The notes below the pieces were generated by a model that saw only the letters and a list, made by a program, of their open reading frames with translations, did not search any database and had not been told where the DNA came from. From Myxococcaceae bacterium JPH2 (GTDB lineage: Bacteria; Myxococcota; Myxococcia; Myxococcales; Myxococcaceae), in contig JAEMGR010000013.1 of NCBI GenBank assembly GCA_016458225.1, forward strand, positions 124,001-188,000: DNA of 64,000 nt, written 5' to 3'. Position numbers and translations under genes: made by a program. Of this stretch, positions 14,055 to 24,894 are shown one piece after another. Numbering within the stretch: position 1 is the first letter of the stretch; every line of letters begins with the position of its first letter.

Positions 14055-16466
14055 ATGAGCGTGTCCACGCGTGCTGTCCTGGTCGTCCATCCGAGCGCGG
14101 AGCGCCGTGCTCAACTCCGAGAAATCCTGGCGGAATATGAAGTTATCGAAGCGACCAACCGGTTGGATGCTTCGAAATTTCTCATTCGAACTCCGCCCGC
14201 CCTGGTCTTGACGACCCCGGAGCTGTTCCCGCGGCTGCTCAAGGACCTGGAGCGGTCCGCGCCCCGGGCGGTCCGCGTGGTGCTCTGCCCTCGCCGGACG
14301 GTCCAGGTGCAGCAGGAACTGGTGGACCTGGCGGCCGCCGGCCACATGTTCTTCACCTTGGAGGAGGAGCCGCTGGACGCGCTGCGCAAGGCGCTCCACG
14401 AGCTGATGCAGGTGCGCGGCTCGGGCCGGCGCGACCCCGCCGAGCCCTTCATGGCGCACTTCGAGGCCGGGGGCGTGCGCTACCAGGCGGAGGTGGCCGA
14501 CGTGGGGACGGGCGGCGTGGGCCTGCACCTCATGGGCGGCGTGCACGTGGAGCGGCTCACGCCCGGCACGCGGCTGGAGGGCCTGGTGCTGACGCGGCGC
14601 GACGGAACTCCGGTGCTCCATGCGGTGGGCGCGACGGTGCGCGTGCTGCGCGCGATGAACGGCGCGGGGGGCCACCACCTCGGGGTGTCCATGGAGCGGC
14701 CGCCGCGCTCGGACGAGGGCTCGCTGTCGGCGGTGCTCCAGGACCGCGTGGCCATCCACGGGTTGCTGCGTCGGGCGGTGCGGCGCGGCGCGGCGTTCTC
14801 GCTGCGCAGCCACGAGGGCAACCGGCTGGTGGACTTTGGCCATGCGCGCTTCGCCATGGAGTCCACGCGCCTCTTGCTGTCCGAGCAGCGCCACACCGCG
14901 GAGCTGTTCAACCCCGGTGACATGGTGCAGCTGTGCTTCGACCTGGGCGGCATGAGCCACGTGGGCACCACGGCGGTGCTCAGCCAGGACGGCGCGGTGC
15001 TCTCGGTGGCCATCCCGCGCTCGCTGACCGAGTACCACCGGCGCAACAGCCTGCGCTTCCGCTCCACGCCGGACCGGCCCTTCGCCATCTCCTTCGTGGC
15101 GCCGCTCACGGGGGAAGAGGTGTACCGCCCGCTCTTGGATCTGCATGTCGGCGGCGTTGCCTTCTCGTTCGACGCGGGACACGAGGTGTATCCGCCGGGC
15201 CTGAGGTTGGATGCCCTCACGCTGCACCTCCCCGGGGGCAGCACCGCGCGGTGCCGCGGACACGTGGTGGACACGGGCCCGCTGGCACACTCGGATGAGA
15301 CGCGCACCATGGAGCGTCCGCGCCGCTGCGGCGTGCGCTTCGACGAGCTGGATGACGTGGCGCACCGGGCCATCATGGAGGCCTTCATCCATGCGCGCTG
15401 CCCGTTCATCCACGACGGCTCGATGCTCCCGTTCCCCGCCATCTGGGACATGTTCCGCGCCGCGCGCGTGCGCTTCCCGGACTATCCGCTGGAGGGAGGG
15501 GCCTCCATCACCACGCTGGAGGACTCGCACCGCATGCTCGGCGATGGGCGCCACGGCTTGTCCAAGACGCTGGTGTTCGAGCGCGATGGCGACCTGCGCG
15601 GCCACTCGTCCGGCCTGCGCATCTATTCGCGCACGTGGATGTCTCAGCACCTCGTGGTGCGCCCGGGCTATCATCGGCAGGAGTCCATCTCTCAGGACCT
15701 GGTGAGCCTCGCGGTCGACTACGCCGAGTCGCTCGGTGACATCGACTACCTGCGCGGACTCTGGCGCGGCCACAACCGCTGGAGCGCGCGCATCTTCGGC
15801 GGCATCGCGGCGCGCATGCAGCGCCCGGGGCTCAGCAGCCTCCATGCGTATACGCCGTGCCGCATCCCCATCCAGCGCGCGCTGGCGATGGATCCGGGCT
15901 CGTGGCGCGTGCGCCCCGCCGCCGAGGAGGACGTGGCGTGGCTGGAGGCCTACCTGCGCGAGCATCAGGACATCGTCCGCCTGCGCAGCACGGACTTGCT
16001 CGGCGACGAGATGCGCCTGTCCACGCTGTCGCGGCGCTACTCCGAGCAGGGCCTCGTGCGCGGACGCGAGTTCGCCGTGGTGGACGGGCCTTCCGGGCCT
16101 CTTGGAATGGTTGTCATGGAATCCATGACTCCGGGCTTGTTTTGGGCCGAGTGGTTCAACGCCTTCTGGATGGTCATTCCCGACCCGGCGTTGCCGCACG
16201 CGGACGAGGTGCGGCGCGCGTTGGTGGCGCATGCATCGCGGCGGATGGCCGAGCGGGGCCGGCCCGTGGCAGAGTGCCTGGCCGAGGACGGGGACCTCTC
16301 CCTGCTGGCGACGCTGGGCTTCCAGAACCTCGGGCGCGTGTTCGAATGGAGCATTCATCGGACGCTGGCGCGCGAGTGGAACAACCAGCTCGTCTCCGTC
16401 TTCGAGCGTCTGTCGCGTCCACAAGAGGACGAGGCGACCCTGGAAGGGCACGAGACAGCGGCATGA
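14055..16466 (+). CDS. receiver-like / tandem PilZ-like / acetyltransferase-like signalling protein
   Basis: An 803-residue multidomain protein with a strong ribosome binding site. Residues 1-118 have the fold pattern of a response-regulator receiver, but the phosphoacceptor position reads VLTTPE, with no Asp, so it is probably pseudo. A PilZ-like unit follows (about 132-225). A second one (about 290-460) has a clear RxxxR at Arg330-Arg334 and Asp362-x-His-x-x-Gly367 in place of DxSxxG. The last ~180 residues (from about 615, SWRVRPAAEEDVAWLEAYL) look like a GNAT acyltransferase, and the region before them (470-610) may be a second, degenerate GNAT half. It could couple c-di-GMP binding to acylation. 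The stop overlaps the next gene by ATGA, and two more coupled genes follow. Confidence 0.7.
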   Translation: MSVSTRAVLVVHPSAERRAQLREILAEYEVIEATNRLDASKFLIRTPPALVLTTPELFPRLLKDLERSAPRAVRVVLCPRRTVQVQQELVDLAAAGHMFFTLEEEPLDALRKALHELMQVRGSGRRDPAEPFMAHFEAGGVRYQAEVADVGTGGVGLHLMGGVHVERLTPGTRLEGLVLTRRDGTPVLHAVGATVRVLRAMNGAGGHHLGVSMERPPRSDEGSLSAVLQDRVAIHGLLRRAVRRGAAFSLRSHEGNRLVDFGHARFAMESTRLLLSEQRHTAELFNPGDMVQLCFDLGGMSHVGTTAVLSQDGAVLSVAIPRSLTEYHRRNSLRFRSTPDRPFAISFVAPLTGEEVYRPLLDLHVGGVAFSFDAGHEVYPPGLRLDALTLHLPGGSTARCRGHVVDTGPLAHSDETRTMERPRRCGVRFDELDDVAHRAIMEAFIHARCPFIHDGSMLPFPAIWDMFRAARVRFPDYPLEGGASITTLEDSHRMLGDGRHGLSKTLVFERDGDLRGHSSGLRIYSRTWMSQHLVVRPGYHRQESISQDLVSLAVDYAESLGDIDYLRGLWRGHNRWSARIFGGIAARMQRPGLSSLHAYTPCRIPIQRALAMDPGSWRVRPAAEEDVAWLEAYLREHQDIVRLRSTDLLGDEMRLSTLSRRYSEQGLVRGREFAVVDGPSGPLGMVVMESMTPGLFWAEWFNAFWMVIPDPALPHADEVRRALVAHASRRMAERGRPVAECLAEDGDLSLLATLGFQNLGRVFEWSIHRTLAREWNNQLVSVFERLSRPQEDEATLEGHETAA

Positions 16467-17278
16467 CCTATCTGATGGAGTCGGATTCCGAGGCGCGGCG
16501 GCTGCTGGAGCAGGAGCGCTCCTCCCCGAGTCTGGAGCGCCTGCGGGTGACGGGGCTTCGCCCAGGCGCGGTGGTGCTCGATGCGGGCTGCGGTCCAGGA
16601 GCCATCACCGCGTCGCTGGTGAAGATGGTGGGGCCAGAGGGACGGGTCGTCGCGTTGGATCCCAGCGAGTCTCGGTTGGAAGAGGCCGCGCGGGTGCTGC
16701 ACGGGAATGACAACGTGGAGCTGATCTGCGCGGCGCTGCCTCAGGCGGGCCTGCCGGCGTCCATCGCGCAGACGGGGCTGCCGTCGGATCACTTCGACTA
16801 CACGTGGTGCCAGTACGTCTTCGAGTACCTGCGCGATCCCGAGACGGCGCTCGATGAGCTCATCCGCGTGACGCGGCCTGGCGGCAAGGTGGTGGTGGCG
16901 GACATCGACGGAGTGGGGCTGCTCAACTGGCCCTTCCCCGCGCTGCTGCGCGACGGCACCGAGAAGCTGATGCGCGCGTTGTCGGAGCAGGGGTTGGACT
17001 TGAACGTGGGGCGCAAGCTCTACCACCTGTTCCGCCAGCACGGCCTGCGCGACGTGCGCGTGCACCTGTCGCCGTTCTACGTGGTGGGGGGCCGCGCGGA
17101 CGACGCGATGGTGGCGGACTGGTCGCTGCGCTTCGACGTGCTCAAGCCCGTGGGCGTGCCCGCGCTGGGAGGCGAGGCCGCGTACACGCTCTTCCGCGAC
17201 GCCTTCCTGGAGATGCTGCGCGACGAGGAGACCTTCAAGTACGCCGTGGTGCTCACCACGGAAGGGACCAAGCCATGA
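16463..17278 (+). CDS. class I SAM-dependent methyltransferase
   Basis: A 271-residue methyltransferase. The start is the ATG at 16463, sharing ATGA with the stop of the PilZ-like gene; the open frame extends upstream only inside that gene. Motif I is VVLDAGCGPGAITASL, with the acidic end of strand 2 in VVALDPSESRLEEAARVL, and a UbiE-like motif follows (FDYTWCQYVFEYL). The C-terminal ~90 residues (DLNVGRKLYHLFRQHGLRDV) form the substrate cap, and the substrate is unknown. It ends in another ATGA overlap with the hybrid kinase gene, so the three proteins are probably made in linked amounts and work on one pathway. Confidence 0.85.
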   Translation: MTYLMESDSEARRLLEQERSSPSLERLRVTGLRPGAVVLDAGCGPGAITASLVKMVGPEGRVVALDPSESRLEEAARVLHGNDNVELICAALPQAGLPASIAQTGLPSDHFDYTWCQYVFEYLRDPETALDELIRVTRPGGKVVVADIDGVGLLNWPFPALLRDGTEKLMRALSEQGLDLNVGRKLYHLFRQHGLRDVRVHLSPFYVVGGRADDAMVADWSLRFDVLKPVGVPALGGEAAYTLFRDAFLEMLRDEETFKYAVVLTTEGTKP

Positions 17279-20190
17279 CGTCGGGAGGCGCGGCGCCGGA
17301 CGACCTGGCGCCAGTCCCCGCCGATACCCCGGAGATCAGCGTCCGAACCCTGCGCGGCTTCCTCCTGCACTTCGAGGAGGCCTATGGCCGTGAGCGGTTG
17401 GCCGCGCTGTGGGAGCGCGAGAAGCTGCCGCTGCCGCTGAGCTACGTGGAGACGCTGTCTCACTTCGTGTCGCTGCGCTTCGTGGAGTCCATGCTGGACC
17501 TCATGGTGCGCGACTCGGGGGACCCGGAGTTCGCGACCAAGGCGGGCATGCGCATCGCGAGCCCGGGCGCCATGGGCTTCGCGTACTACATGCTCAAGGC
17601 GCTCGCGACGCCGGCCGTCTGCTACGAGCGCACCGTGGAGCTGGGGCCCACCTTCAACCGGGTGGGCACCTTCCGCATCGTCCAGATGGGCAGCGACCAG
17701 ATGGTGCTGCGCTACACGTCGCGCATCCCCGAGCATGGCCGCAACCTGTGCCGCGCGCGCATGGGCAACTTCGCCTCGCTGCCCACCATCTGGGACCTGG
17801 CGCCCGCGGAGGTTCGCGAGACGCAGTGTCACGTGGAGGGCGCGCCCTGTTGTGAGTACCACCTGCGCTGGCAGGCCCTGCCGCCGGTGGCGTGGCGCCG
17901 CTACGTGGGCGGGCTGGTGGGCGTGGTGGGCGGGTTGATGGCGCATGCGCTCGCGCTGGGGCCCGCGGGCTTCTCCGTGGGCGCGTTCGCGCTGACGGGC
18001 TCCGCGCTGGGCGCGTGGCTGGACACCCGCGCGGAGCTGGAGCGCAAGGACCTGCAGCTCAACGAGCAGCACCAGGGGCTCAAGCGCTCGCTGGAGGACC
18101 TGCAGCGGCGCAACGAGGAGATCTTCCGCACCAACCTGGAGCTGGAGGACCGCGTCGAGGCGCGCACGCGCGAGCTGTCCGAGGCCAACTCCAAGCTCGA
18201 GGCCGCGCTCGTGCGGCAGCAGGAGCTGGATCGCGTCAAGAGCGAGTTCTTCGACAACGTGAGCCATGAGCTGCGCACGCCGCTCACGCTCATCCTGCTG
18301 TCGCTGGAGTCGCTCCAGAAGAAGGCGCCGGAAGACCTGCCCGACGTGCTGCGCCAGCACCTGGCCACGATGGACCGCAGCGCGCAGCGCCTCTTGCGGC
18401 TCATCAACAACCTGCTGGACCTGGCGCAGCTCGAGTCCGGCAAGGTGCGCCTGCGCTATCACCCGCTGGAGCTGTACGGCTTCCTCTCCACGCTGCTCCT
18501 GCCGTTTCGCACCATGGCGGAGAAGCAGGGCGTGGAGCTGGTGCTGGATGGGCAGACCGTCTCGCCGGTGCATGTGGACAGCGAGCGCATCGAGATCGTC
18601 TTCCAGAACCTGGTGTCCAACGCGCTCAAGTTCACCCAGGCGGGCCGCGTCACGGTGCGCGTGCGCGAGGACGACGCGGACGTGCACGTGGAGGTGGTGG
18701 ACACGGGGCCGGGCATCGCGCAGCGCGACCTCGCCGTCATCTTCGACCGGTTCGCGCAGGCGGACACGTCCGGCACGCGCCGGTTCGGCGGCACGGGCAT
18801 TGGCCTGGCGCTGGTGAAGGAGACGCTGGAGCTGCACTCGGGCGGCATCTCGGTGACGAGCGAGGTGGGCCAGGGCTCCAACTTCCATGTGCGGCTGCCC
18901 AAGGGCATGGCGCACGTTCGCGACGAGCTGCGCGAGCGCCGACGCCAGGATGTCCCCGTGCGCCGCGACCGCCGCATCTCCGGCAACTTCCCCTCGGTGG
19001 CGACGAGCACGCCCGCCGCCGCGCCCTCCTCCGCGCCGCATGATCATCCGGGGCCGGATCAACGCGCGCCCCGCGTGCTGGTGGTGGAGGACGACCACGA
19101 GATCCGCGCGTTCATCGCGGGCATCCTGGAGCAGCACTACCGCGTGCTGGAGGCGTCCAACGGCGAGGAGGGGCGTCAGCGCGCGATGACCGAGCACCCG
19201 GACCTGGTGCTCTCCGACGTGATGATGCCGGTGATGTCCGGACTCCAGCTCCTGGACGTGCTGCGCGCGTCGCCGCAGACGGTGGACATCCCCATCATCC
19301 TGCTCACCGCGCGTCAGGACGTGTCCGCGAAGGTGGAGGCGCTGGGCTCGGGGGCCAATGACTACCTGGGCAAGCCCTTCAGCCCGCGCGAGCTGCTGGC
19401 CCGCGTGGAGACGCAGCTGCGCCTGCGCGAGGCGGCGGTGCGCGCGGCGGAGAACGAGCGGCTGGCGGCCATCGGTCTGTTGACGTCGGGCTTCGCGCAC
19501 GAGGTGCGCAATCCGCTCAACGGGCTGATGAACGCGCTGGTGCCGCTGAAGGAAGTGGTGCAGGGCGGGCAGGGCACGGATCCCGACATGGGCGTGGCCA
19601 TGCTGGAGGTGATGGAGGAGTGCGGTCAGCGCATCCGCCACCTCGCCGAGTCGCTCCTGTCCTTTGTCCGCACGGCGGAGAAGCCGGTGGCCGTGCGCCT
19701 GGACGCCGCGCTGGACTCCACGCTGAGCGTGCTGGGATGGAAGGTGCCGCCGGGCGTGGTGGTGGAGCGCGCGTACCACTGCTCGGAGCCCGTGCTGGGA
19801 GACCCGGGCACGCTCAACCAGGTGTGGCTCAACCTGCTCGATAACGCGCTGCGCGCCGTGGGGGAGAGCGGGCGGGTGCGCGTGGCCACCGCGCGCGAGG
19901 GGGACGAGGTGCTCGTGTCCTTCAGCGACACGGGCGTGGGCATCCGCCCCGAGGACATGGAGCGCATCTTCCAGCCCTTCTTCTCCACCCGCGCGGCGGG
20001 CGAGGGCACGGGGCTGGGGCTCGCGCTCAGCCGGCGCATCATCCTCCAGCACGGAGGCCGCATCGGCGTGACGAGCAAGCCGGGCGAGGGGACGCGGGTG
20101 GAAGTCCGCCTGCCCTTGCGCCCGACGGTGGGCGGGGCGCCTGCTCCCACTCAGCCCTCCCAGGACAGGTGGACACGCCGGCTCGGCTGA
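17275..20190 (+). CDS. hybrid sensor histidine kinase with two transmitter modules
   Basis: A 971-residue protein. Residues 10-205 form a sensor related in pattern to V4R-like or AraC-associated ligand domains and end in GAPCCEYHLRW (Cys192, Cys193). Two hydrophobic stretches at about 211-249 may be a membrane hairpin, then a coiled coil leads to HisKA (NVSHELRTPL, His331) and a complete HATPase (N box NLVSNALKF, DTGPGI, GGTGIGLAL). A receiver follows (about 600-715) with phosphoacceptor Asp648 in LSDVMMP. It is followed by a second complete kinase: HisKA-like FAHEVRNPLNG (His742) and HATPase (DTGVGI, GTGLGLALS). The order is sensor, kinase, receiver, kinase. No separate output regulator is adjacent; the partner genes are the coupled PilZ-like protein and methyltransferase. 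Confidence 0.9.
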   Translation: MTSGGAAPDDLAPVPADTPEISVRTLRGFLLHFEEAYGRERLAALWEREKLPLPLSYVETLSHFVSLRFVESMLDLMVRDSGDPEFATKAGMRIASPGAMGFAYYMLKALATPAVCYERTVELGPTFNRVGTFRIVQMGSDQMVLRYTSRIPEHGRNLCRARMGNFASLPTIWDLAPAEVRETQCHVEGAPCCEYHLRWQALPPVAWRRYVGGLVGVVGGLMAHALALGPAGFSVGAFALTGSALGAWLDTRAELERKDLQLNEQHQGLKRSLEDLQRRNEEIFRTNLELEDRVEARTRELSEANSKLEAALVRQQELDRVKSEFFDNVSHELRTPLTLILLSLESLQKKAPEDLPDVLRQHLATMDRSAQRLLRLINNLLDLAQLESGKVRLRYHPLELYGFLSTLLLPFRTMAEKQGVELVLDGQTVSPVHVDSERIEIVFQNLVSNALKFTQAGRVTVRVREDDADVHVEVVDTGPGIAQRDLAVIFDRFAQADTSGTRRFGGTGIGLALVKETLELHSGGISVTSEVGQGSNFHVRLPKGMAHVRDELRERRRQDVPVRRDRRISGNFPSVATSTPAAAPSSAPHDHPGPDQRAPRVLVVEDDHEIRAFIAGILEQHYRVLEASNGEEGRQRAMTEHPDLVLSDVMMPVMSGLQLLDVLRASPQTVDIPIILLTARQDVSAKVEALGSGANDYLGKPFSPRELLARVETQLRLREAAVRAAENERLAAIGLLTSGFAHEVRNPLNGLMNALVPLKEVVQGGQGTDPDMGVAMLEVMEECGQRIRHLAESLLSFVRTAEKPVAVRLDAALDSTLSVLGWKVPPGVVVERAYHCSEPVLGDPGTLNQVWLNLLDNALRAVGESGRVRVATAREGDEVLVSFSDTGVGIRPEDMERIFQPFFSTRAAGEGTGLGLALSRRIILQHGGRIGVTSKPGEGTRVEVRLPLRPTVGGAPAPTQPSQDRWTRRLG

Positions 20191-20320
20191 GTGCGTCACG
20201 ACGGGCCGGAAATTCTGCCGCTTCTCAAGTGTCCTCTCTGTCAACGCAAAGGTGCGGCTCTGCTACAGTGCCGTGCCTTTTCCAGTCCTACCCCTCACAT
20301 CCTTTCGAGGAAGACACGGC

Positions 20321-21715
<1,395 letters not shown>

Positions 21716-23436: not shown

Positions 23437-24894
23437 CTACGTCGCGGGCGCGGCGGCGGGGGCGGCGCCATCCACCTGCGCGGGAGTCGGGGCCTGGTAG
23501 TAGTCGCGGACCACGAAGCGGCGGGCGACGAGCGCCATGCCCACGGCGGCGACGGCGGCGAAGCTCGCATAGAAGAAGAACTGGCCGGCGCCGGTGAAGA
23601 CATTCAGCTCGGAGGCGATGGCCACCGCGAAGTTCGCCGTGGCGTTGCACACCAGCCAGATGGATTGCACCACGCTCTTCATCTCACGCGGCGCCTGGGT
23701 GTACGCGAACTCCAGGCCCGTGGTGGACACGAGAATCTCCGCCACCGTCAGCACGATGTACGGCAAGAGCTGCCAGGCGATGTTGAGCGTGGTGCCGTGC
23801 TCCATCATCACCTGATAGCCGCCCGCGATGACGTACGCGATGGCGCCCACCGCCAGCCCCAGGGGCATGCGCCGCAGCGGCGTCAGCTCGAGGCCCACGC
23901 GCTGCAGCGCCGGGTACACCACCGCCGTGAGGAACGGGATGAGCAACATCACCAGCGCGGGGTTGATGAACTGCATCTGGCTGGGCTCGAACTTCAGCGG
24001 GCCCACGTAGGGGTCCATGGCGCGGGCCTGGACCACCCACGTGGAGGCCTTCTGGTCGAACAGCATCCAGAAGAAGGGCACGAACGGGAGCATCAATCCG
24101 CTGATGCGCAACACCGCCTTGGCGCCCTCCACGGCCTCGGGCGGGTGCCGCTGCAGCGCGGCGTCCAGCCAGTGGGACTTCGCGCCCGCTTGGGCCTCCG
24201 GGCGCTTCCCCTGGAAGGCCGCGAACACGATCTTCAGGAACGAGTGAGGGTTGGGCCCCGAGGGCGGCACCATCACGTAGTGCTTGCGACCCAGCCAGAA
24301 CAGGAAGGTCGCGACGAACATCAGGACGCCGGGGATGCCGAAGGCCACCGCGGGCCCCAGGCGCTTGAGCGCCAGCGGGATGAACAGCGACGCGAACAAC
24401 GAGCCCAGGTTGATGGTCCAGTAGAAGATGGCGAAGATCTTCTTCAAGAGGTGCTTGTTCTTCGCCGAGAACTGGTCACCCACCATGGCCGCCACGCACG
24501 GCTTGATTCCGCCGCTGCCCACCGAGATGAGGAAGAGGCCGGCGAAGAAGCCCGGGATGCTGTTCTCGAACAGCGCGAGGCACGCGTGCCCGGCGCAGTA
24601 CACCAGGCTCAGCCACAGGATGACGCGGAACTTGCCGAAGAACCGGTCCGCCAGCCACCCGCCCACCAGCGGGAACCAGTACACGCCGAACATGAAGAAG
24701 TGGAAGAGCGCCTTGGCCCGCGTGGTGCGCATCTCCGTGTCCGGAATCTGCGTCAGCAGCAGGTAGTCGATGAGGAACACCGTGAGGATGTTCCGCATCC
24801 CGTAGAAGCTGAAGCGCTCACACGCCTCGTTCCCGATGATGTAGGGGATCTGCGGCGGAAAGCGGTCGTCCTGCCCGGTACGTGTCTCGGCCAT
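23437..24894 (-). CDS. POT-family peptide transporter, second type
   Basis: A 485-residue proton-dependent oligopeptide transporter. Helix 1 carries ExxER (NEACERFSFYGMRNILTVFL), and the signature region reads FAIFYWTINLGSLFASLF, close to the animal-type PepT/PTR branch, unlike the gene at 20321. A long loop (HSFLKIVFAAFQGKRPEA) separates the two bundles, followed by VPFFWMLFDQKASTWVVQA. The last ~25 residues are Ala/Pro-rich. It lies downstream of uvrA on the same strand after a 329-bp gap, so it probably has its own promoter in the AT-richer stretch around 25060-25130. Confidence 0.92.
   Translation of the reverse strand: MAETRTGQDDRFPPQIPYIIGNEACERFSFYGMRNILTVFLIDYLLLTQIPDTEMRTTRAKALFHFFMFGVYWFPLVGGWLADRFFGKFRVILWLSLVYCAGHACLALFENSIPGFFAGLFLISVGSGGIKPCVAAMVGDQFSAKNKHLLKKIFAIFYWTINLGSLFASLFIPLALKRLGPAVAFGIPGVLMFVATFLFWLGRKHYVMVPPSGPNPHSFLKIVFAAFQGKRPEAQAGAKSHWLDAALQRHPPEAVEGAKAVLRISGLMLPFVPFFWMLFDQKASTWVVQARAMDPYVGPLKFEPSQMQFINPALVMLLIPFLTAVVYPALQRVGLELTPLRRMPLGLAVGAIAYVIAGGYQVMMEHGTTLNIAWQLLPYIVLTVAEILVSTTGLEFAYTQAPREMKSVVQSIWLVCNATANFAVAIASELNVFTGAGQFFFYASFAAVAAVGMALVARRFVVRDYYQAPTPAQVDGAAPAAAPAT

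Follow-up and report, generated by a model that had tools for sequence, protein, structure and literature searches.

The pixB operon in this window, a 64,000-nucleotide stretch of myxobacterial DNA, contains a block with its own history. PixB, the methyltransferase encoded downstream of it and the sensor half of the following hybrid kinase share one history. The kinase half of the same protein and both flanks of the operon share another. This is the pattern by which a synthase-sensor locus is recognized, in which the history of the signal genes and the sensor differs from that of the kinase core and its surroundings. We propose, with a probability of roughly 0.55, that the locus encodes a signal synthase gated by c-di-GMP together with the receptor kinase for its signal, and that the pair is maintained as interchangeable specificity types. 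The operon is real and conserved and is not an unknown system, and the comparisons provide strong new evidence for a polymorphic synthase-sensor locus. The folds of PixB and the sensor, the replacement of a kinase module by HD-GYP in two families and the shared history of the block are new here.

The pixB operon and its distribution

Three open reading frames of 803, 271 and 971 codons are present on the forward strand as predicted (Table 1), and the ATGA stop/start overlaps at 16463-16466 and 17275-17278 were confirmed. Among relatives, all 65 pixB/methyltransferase junctions and 63 of 65 methyltransferase/kinase junctions have an in-frame NTGA overlap, which is kept even where the proteins are only ~35% identical. 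The overlap is a conserved trait and did not arise by chance. The host genome measures 9.0 Mb and is myxobacterial. Of the named relatives, Citreicoccus inhibens is the nearest, with 98% identity over PixB. Two genes for POT-like transporters, assigned to this family by eye from sequence, lie downstream of the operon (window 20252-21715 and 23437-24894) and are syntenic in most relatives.

Table 1. Features of the pixB operon in the window
Feature	Position	Strand	Basis
pixB orthologue, 803 aa	14055..16466	+	57-58% identity to M. xanthus PixB; RxxxR motifs
PixB pseudo-receiver (aa 6-119)	14070..14411	+	Spo0F fold, Z 16.1, 1.8 Å over 111 residues
PixB PilZ-1 (aa 121-222), RGSGR at 121	14415..14720	+	Alignment; published PilZ domain (PMC8316039)
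PixB YcgR-N-like domain (aa 223-325)	14721..15029	+	MrkH 5kgo fold; PP4397/YcgR by sequence profile
PixB PilZ-2 (aa 326-447), RNSLR at 330, DLHVGG at 362	15030..15395	+	Pfam PilZ; 4xrn fold
PixB tandem GNAT acyltransferase fold (aa 448-774)	15396..16376	+	Structural matches, Z 15-16
Class I SAM methyltransferase, 271 aa	16463..17278	+	Pfam Methyltransf_11, 2.6e-17
Hybrid sensor kinase, 971 aa: sensor, TM hairpin, HisKA-HATPase, REC, HisKA-HATPase	17275..20190	+	ORF; Pfam
Kinase sensor domain (aa 12-205), H-NOX/VirS/V4R-like fold	17308..17889	+	AF2, pLDDT 91.6
Predicted TM hairpin (aa 210-250)	17902..18024	+	Hydropathy peak aa 210-233; Arg/Lys-rich on both sides
End of divergent block (kinase aa 200-300)	17872..18174	+	Sister-species comparisons; identity recovers at the sensor/transmitter junction

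Sequence comparison identifies the product of the first gene as the Myxococcus xanthus PixB (MXAN_2604) orthologue. The two RxxxR motifs of the window protein correspond to RESER at 121 and RNSLR at 331 in the M. xanthus orthologue (AM003), which are the published residues. In the published account (Kuzmich 2021, PMC8316039), an acetyltransferase region of M. xanthus PixB accompanies two PilZ domains, whose RxxxR motifs lie at R121 and R331. The protein binds c-di-GMP in vitro and suppresses reversals in a Frz-dependent manner; without it, cells hyper-reverse, again depending on Frz, and form no fruiting bodies (PMC8316039). A likely operon of pixB and two downstream genes was already proposed in 2021 (PMC8316039). 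The gene is upregulated during development (PMC8844925), when the c-di-GMP level rises about tenfold (PMC8316039). The window operon shares the two PilZ motifs, the acetyltransferase region and the two downstream genes with the published one. The original prediction had presented the operon as a candidate for an undescribed system, and for its first gene this fails. A search with the few guessed locus tags available for it found no literature on the two genes downstream of M. xanthus pixB.

We surveyed 195 genomes of the phylum and found 73 pixB-like genes in 72 of them. The methyltransferase and then the kinase follow directly in 66 of the 73 loci. Chance co-occurrence of the three genes is rejected. 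The seven exceptions comprise five contig ends, one locus in another family without the methyltransferase (L049) and one second tandem pixB copy. Separate occurrence of the homologues in most relatives had been named as evidence against a single system; they stay together. Mere local synteny is also rejected, because the cassette is whole in five loci that lack the usual nadA and POT flanks (L035, L037, L091, L092 and L096). In L149 (G109), two tandem pixB-like genes precede the methyltransferase and kinase genes. An extra stretch encoding a receiver plus kinase lies directly 3' of the cassette in a metagenome-assembled genome (L035:12782-13861), and likewise in L037. The Myxococcus-type locus L084 comes from a public record under the name Comamonas sp. 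KCTC 72670, which is probably a mislabelled myxobacterium. A plasmid search gave no match.

Domain structures of the three proteins

An AlphaFold2 model of PixB, built with 19 orthologues (mean pLDDT 83), adds to the published picture of two PilZ domains and one acetyltransferase domain (PMC8316039) a pseudo-receiver, a YcgR-N-like domain and a tandem arrangement of the GNAT region. In the alignment, the pseudo-receiver lacks the phospho-Asp and the acidic pocket: residues 12-14 are H-P-S, and the phospho-Asp position, 54, is T. His12 is present in all 15 full-length Myxococcaceae rows. Pfam PilZ matches two stretches of PixB (E 7.5e-10). R330 of PilZ-2 is invariant and R334 is found in 18 of 19 rows. 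The predicted structure of PilZ-2 matches the PilZ/c-di-GMP structure 4xrn (Z 15.1), and residues 223-450, comprising the YcgR-N-like domain and PilZ-2, match MrkH 5kgo (Z 14.7 over 212 residues).

Tandem GNATs rank first among the structural matches of the C-terminal region. The model resembles a histidine acetyltransferase (9emp, Z 16.2, 4.4 Å over 272 residues) and the tandem GNAT of the clavulanate pathway (2wpx, Z 15.8); MAB_4324 (7q3a) is also among the predicted matches with Z 15-16. Foldseek matches of this region include N-myristoyltransferases. Pfam gave no match to the pseudo-receiver or the GNAT part. Of the canonical pyrophosphate-loop motif for acyl-CoA, [R/Q]xxGx[G/A], the first lobe has a degenerate version, RQESIS, in which R541 is kept, and the second lobe has none. 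GNAT-fold enzymes elsewhere vary this loop, and a degenerate loop is no proof of inactivity. PixB is likely to catalyze acyl transfer, with a degenerate CoA loop.

The N-acyl amino acid synthases Nas343 and Nas354 also combine a GNAT-like acyltransferase fold with PilZ, and c-di-GMP control has been proposed for them (PMC4897644). They differ from PixB in having a single NAS domain of the FeeM type. PixB gave no Pfam or PDB sequence-profile match to FeeM. FeeM- and LuxI-type structures are not among the best 50 structural matches listed for PixB, which excludes nothing. A second PilZ-GNAT family of ~700 residues occurs across the Myxococcaceae (L002, on contig C3 of the same genome, and L021-L031), and is not polymorphic in the pairs checked.

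The methyltransferase is by its sequence an ordinary class I SAM enzyme, with profile matches to 3mgg and phosphoethanolamine N-methyltransferases.

In the kinase, Pfam assigned HisKA, HATPase, Response_reg, HisKA and HATPase in this order, and the phosphorylation sites H331, D648 and H742 are invariant in 66 sequences. Pfam made no assignment in the N-terminal 205 residues; among orthologues, weak matches to Arabinose_bd (PF12625) and to V4R were found in 8 of 17 each. A PDB sequence search with the sensor domain gave no match. Its predicted structure resembles H-NOX (Z 14.8, 2.9 Å over 172 residues), VirS (8rcw, Z 12.4) and the phenol sensor MopR (5kbi, Z 9.4). The fold resembles that of small-molecule and lipid sensors, among them VirS, MopR and palmitoylated TRAPPC3. 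The kinase sensor shares its fold with the H-NOX, VirS N-terminal and V4R (MopR/PoxR) domains, but sequence identity is only ~9-14%. It also differs in that the alignment shows no conserved proximal haem histidine in the corresponding helix, and on this ground haem/NO sensing by the kinase is rejected. Of the H-NOX motif YxSxR, Y and S are kept and R occurs in only 2 of 14 rows. The TM hairpin lies between sensor and kinase. Both are thus expected on the same side of the membrane, with a predicted cytoplasmic location for the sensor. The same sensor domain also occurs away from pixB, in an open frame of 528 aa (G103:C1:5840426-5840989) and in open frames of ~590-620 aa in five further genomes (G067, G072, G075, G164 and G056).

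The domains named in the original prediction were confirmed. PilZ, the SAM methyltransferase and the two kinase modules were supported by Pfam and the pseudo-receiver by its predicted fold; the GNAT-like part was also found, as a tandem GNAT.

In two distant families (L047 and L049), HD-GYP takes the place of the kinase's second transmitter (E 1e-37 to 1e-42), and the HHExxDGxGYP motif is intact in L047. This ties the locus to the breakdown of c-di-GMP as well as its binding.

A block with its own history

Two divergent types of PixB, an addition to the published account (PMC8316039), are found within the genus Myxococcus. At the same syntenic locus, M. xanthus and M. llanfairpwllgwyngyll are 89% identical in nadA, 78% in the POT gene and 69-82% in the kinase from the coiled coil to the second transmitter. 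Within the block, identity is 28-40% for PixB, depending on the domain, 47-48% for the methyltransferase and 40-46% for the kinase sensor. M. llanfairpwllgwyngyll resembles Corallococcus in exactly this stretch.

Distance matrices from 49 genomes fall into two sets. The first contains all PixB domains, the methyltransferase and the sensor, TM and coil segments of the kinase, with mutual rho of 0.70-0.94. In the second, the first kinase module, the receiver and the second kinase module correlate with the flanks (rho 0.67-0.89). Correlation between the sets is ~0.2-0.6. In partial Mantel tests on 61 taxa that controlled for kinase and flanks, the sensor correlated with GNAT at 0.92 and with the methyltransferase at 0.81 (p 0.001). 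With flanks controlled, the first kinase module and the sensor, parts of the same protein, gave -0.02.

Trees show the same division. The genus Myxococcus is one clade in the kinase tree (99*), and a grouping of Citreicoccus with the M. xanthus type is rejected by the kinase data (AU p 6e-5). This pairing is found in the sensor, methyltransferase and PixB trees, which reject the Myxococcus clade (AU p 1.3e-6, 5e-5 and 4e-61, respectively). Mapped on the kinase tree, the block requires at least 5 changes among four major types, and at least 9 among seven finer types.

Three pairs of sister species were compared (G151/G142, G135/G143 and G148/G134). Their flanks are 94-100% and their kinase cores 80-99% identical. 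Within the block, most domains of PixB reach 26-71% identity, and the methyltransferase and sensor 41-76%. Divergence within the block thus reaches up to 74% between species more than 90% identical at the flanks. On the 5' side, the drop in identity falls either immediately ahead of pixB or past the receiver-like domain, at about PixB residue 110. Fast evolution of the PixB family was considered as the cause and rejected. In the same three pairs, the other PilZ-GNAT protein is 83, 97 and 93% identical, compared to 36, 64 and 63% for PixB, and a weakly constrained linker in the kinase (aa 546-600) is 69-95% identical.

The main caveat is that the block is contiguous, and its shared history could possibly reflect hitch-hiking on one recombination tract, since homologous recombination tends to end in conserved sequence and the kinase core supplies it. 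The pixB and methyltransferase genes would then be exchanged for reasons of their own, carrying the adjacent sensor half along, and the kinase would sense something unrelated. The tract ends do lie in conserved sequence, the kinase core is the next conserved stretch, and fast evolution is common in sensor domains. However, rate alone is insufficient to account for the pattern, since the kinase linker is conserved in the sister pairs and its partial correlation with the sensor is 0.00. The block also ends in the same zone in all three pairs. We consider hitch-hiking unlikely.

A proposed signal synthase and receptor kinase

Exchange of the block, with the kinase transmitter left in place, resembles what is known from two quorum-sensing systems. 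In the Bacillus ComQXPA locus, a polymorphic block of signal-making genes and a kinase forms pherotypes, specificity types that differ among close relatives (PMC4408185). In Ralstonia, the phylogeny of PhcB and PhcS tracks signal type and not phylotype (PMC11960443). The PhcB-PhcS-PhcR/Q operon also contains a methyltransferase and a sensor histidine kinase, and its matched synthase and sensor types are independent of the species tree (PMC11960443); this likeness is one of operon content and phylogenetic pattern. Phc differs in that no c-di-GMP-binding acyltransferase is known there and its output is a LysR regulator. The pixB cassette differs from ComQXPA in its enzymes, an acyltransferase and a methyltransferase, and in having no isoprenyl transferase or peptide gene; since the genes overlap, there is no space for a ComX pre-peptide gene. 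The most economical mechanism would be that PixB and the methyltransferase produce the ligand of the kinase. Most likely, the two enzymes would make an acylated and methylated signal that the co-encoded kinase senses.

According to this mechanism, PixB, as a tandem-GNAT acyltransferase with two PilZ domains, would acylate an amine, and the methyltransferase would modify the product. Synthesis would be gated by c-di-GMP as it rises in development. The soluble H-NOX-like sensor on the cytoplasmic side of the TM hairpin may bind the product, and binding would determine how far the hybrid kinase, with its two transmitters, is phosphorylated; the output of the kinase would feed reversal control and development. 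The product may act between cells; a methyl-capped acyl compound would be membrane-permeable and would thus fit a cytoplasmic sensor. The original prediction of one system, in which a sensor kinase is joined with c-di-GMP, acyl transfer and methyl transfer, is supported as a conserved, co-inherited trio. The direction of flow is probably different from the one predicted. There, a sensed ligand controlled the enzymes; co-diversification suggests that the kinase senses a product of the enzymes.

Several observations count against a signal, the degenerate CoA loop of the GNAT lobes among them. In growing M. xanthus, the acetyltransferase domain of PixB alone is sufficient for reversal control (PMC8316039). 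The distant relative with L049 has PixB and the kinase and lacks the methyltransferase. At the syntenic site in one member of the Myxococcaceae (G009, L154:4610-7561), pixB and the methyltransferase gene are missing and the kinase is intact, with 983 aa. This kinase is possibly an eavesdropper, a receptor without the putative synthase.

Matched types could also arise by protein contact, if PixB, perhaps with the methyltransferase, binds or modifies the kinase sensor within a complex inside the cell, linking c-di-GMP to a phosphorelay. Translational coupling at the conserved junctions favours a fixed stoichiometry, and the phosphorylation-dead receiver fold of PixB could dock on the kinase. The common history includes all PixB domains, PilZ among them, and the predicted cytoplasmic location of the sensor would permit contact. 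However, the sensor has the fold of a ligand-binding domain, and the kinase of L154 persists without PixB and the methyltransferase. Deep, repeatedly exchanged allelic types are also typical of signal/receptor pairs such as ComQXPA and PhcBS, not of housekeeping complexes. Protein contact is an improbable explanation. Alternatively, PixB could be a purely intracellular c-di-GMP effector whose acetylation target, a protein or small molecule, lies upstream of Frz; its operon partners would be regulators that have no signal. This would agree with c-di-GMP binding by PixB, the need for its acetyltransferase domain in reversal control (PMC8316039) and the HD-GYP output in two distant families, but is less likely still, since it leaves unexplained why the enzyme genes share a history with only the sensor half of the kinase.

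PixB itself is known, and the polymorphic synthase-sensor cassette appears to be undescribed. A literature search on Myxococcus and pherotype found no relevant paper; by title and abstract, the matches were on other topics. Multicellular development in M. xanthus depends on PixB among other c-di-GMP receptors, and the history it shares with the methyltransferase and the sensor half makes the question of its substrate directly testable. If the proposed synthase and receptor are correct, myxobacteria, the classic social bacteria, would have a signal/receptor pair with specificity types, and c-di-GMP would be linked to production of an intercellular signal. More tentatively, the locus may represent a hitherto unrecognized form of small-molecule communication with several distinct 'dialects', in which PixB gated by c-di-GMP and the methyltransferase make the acylated and methylated signal, a haem-free H-NOX-like domain reads it, and the block is exchanged between species.
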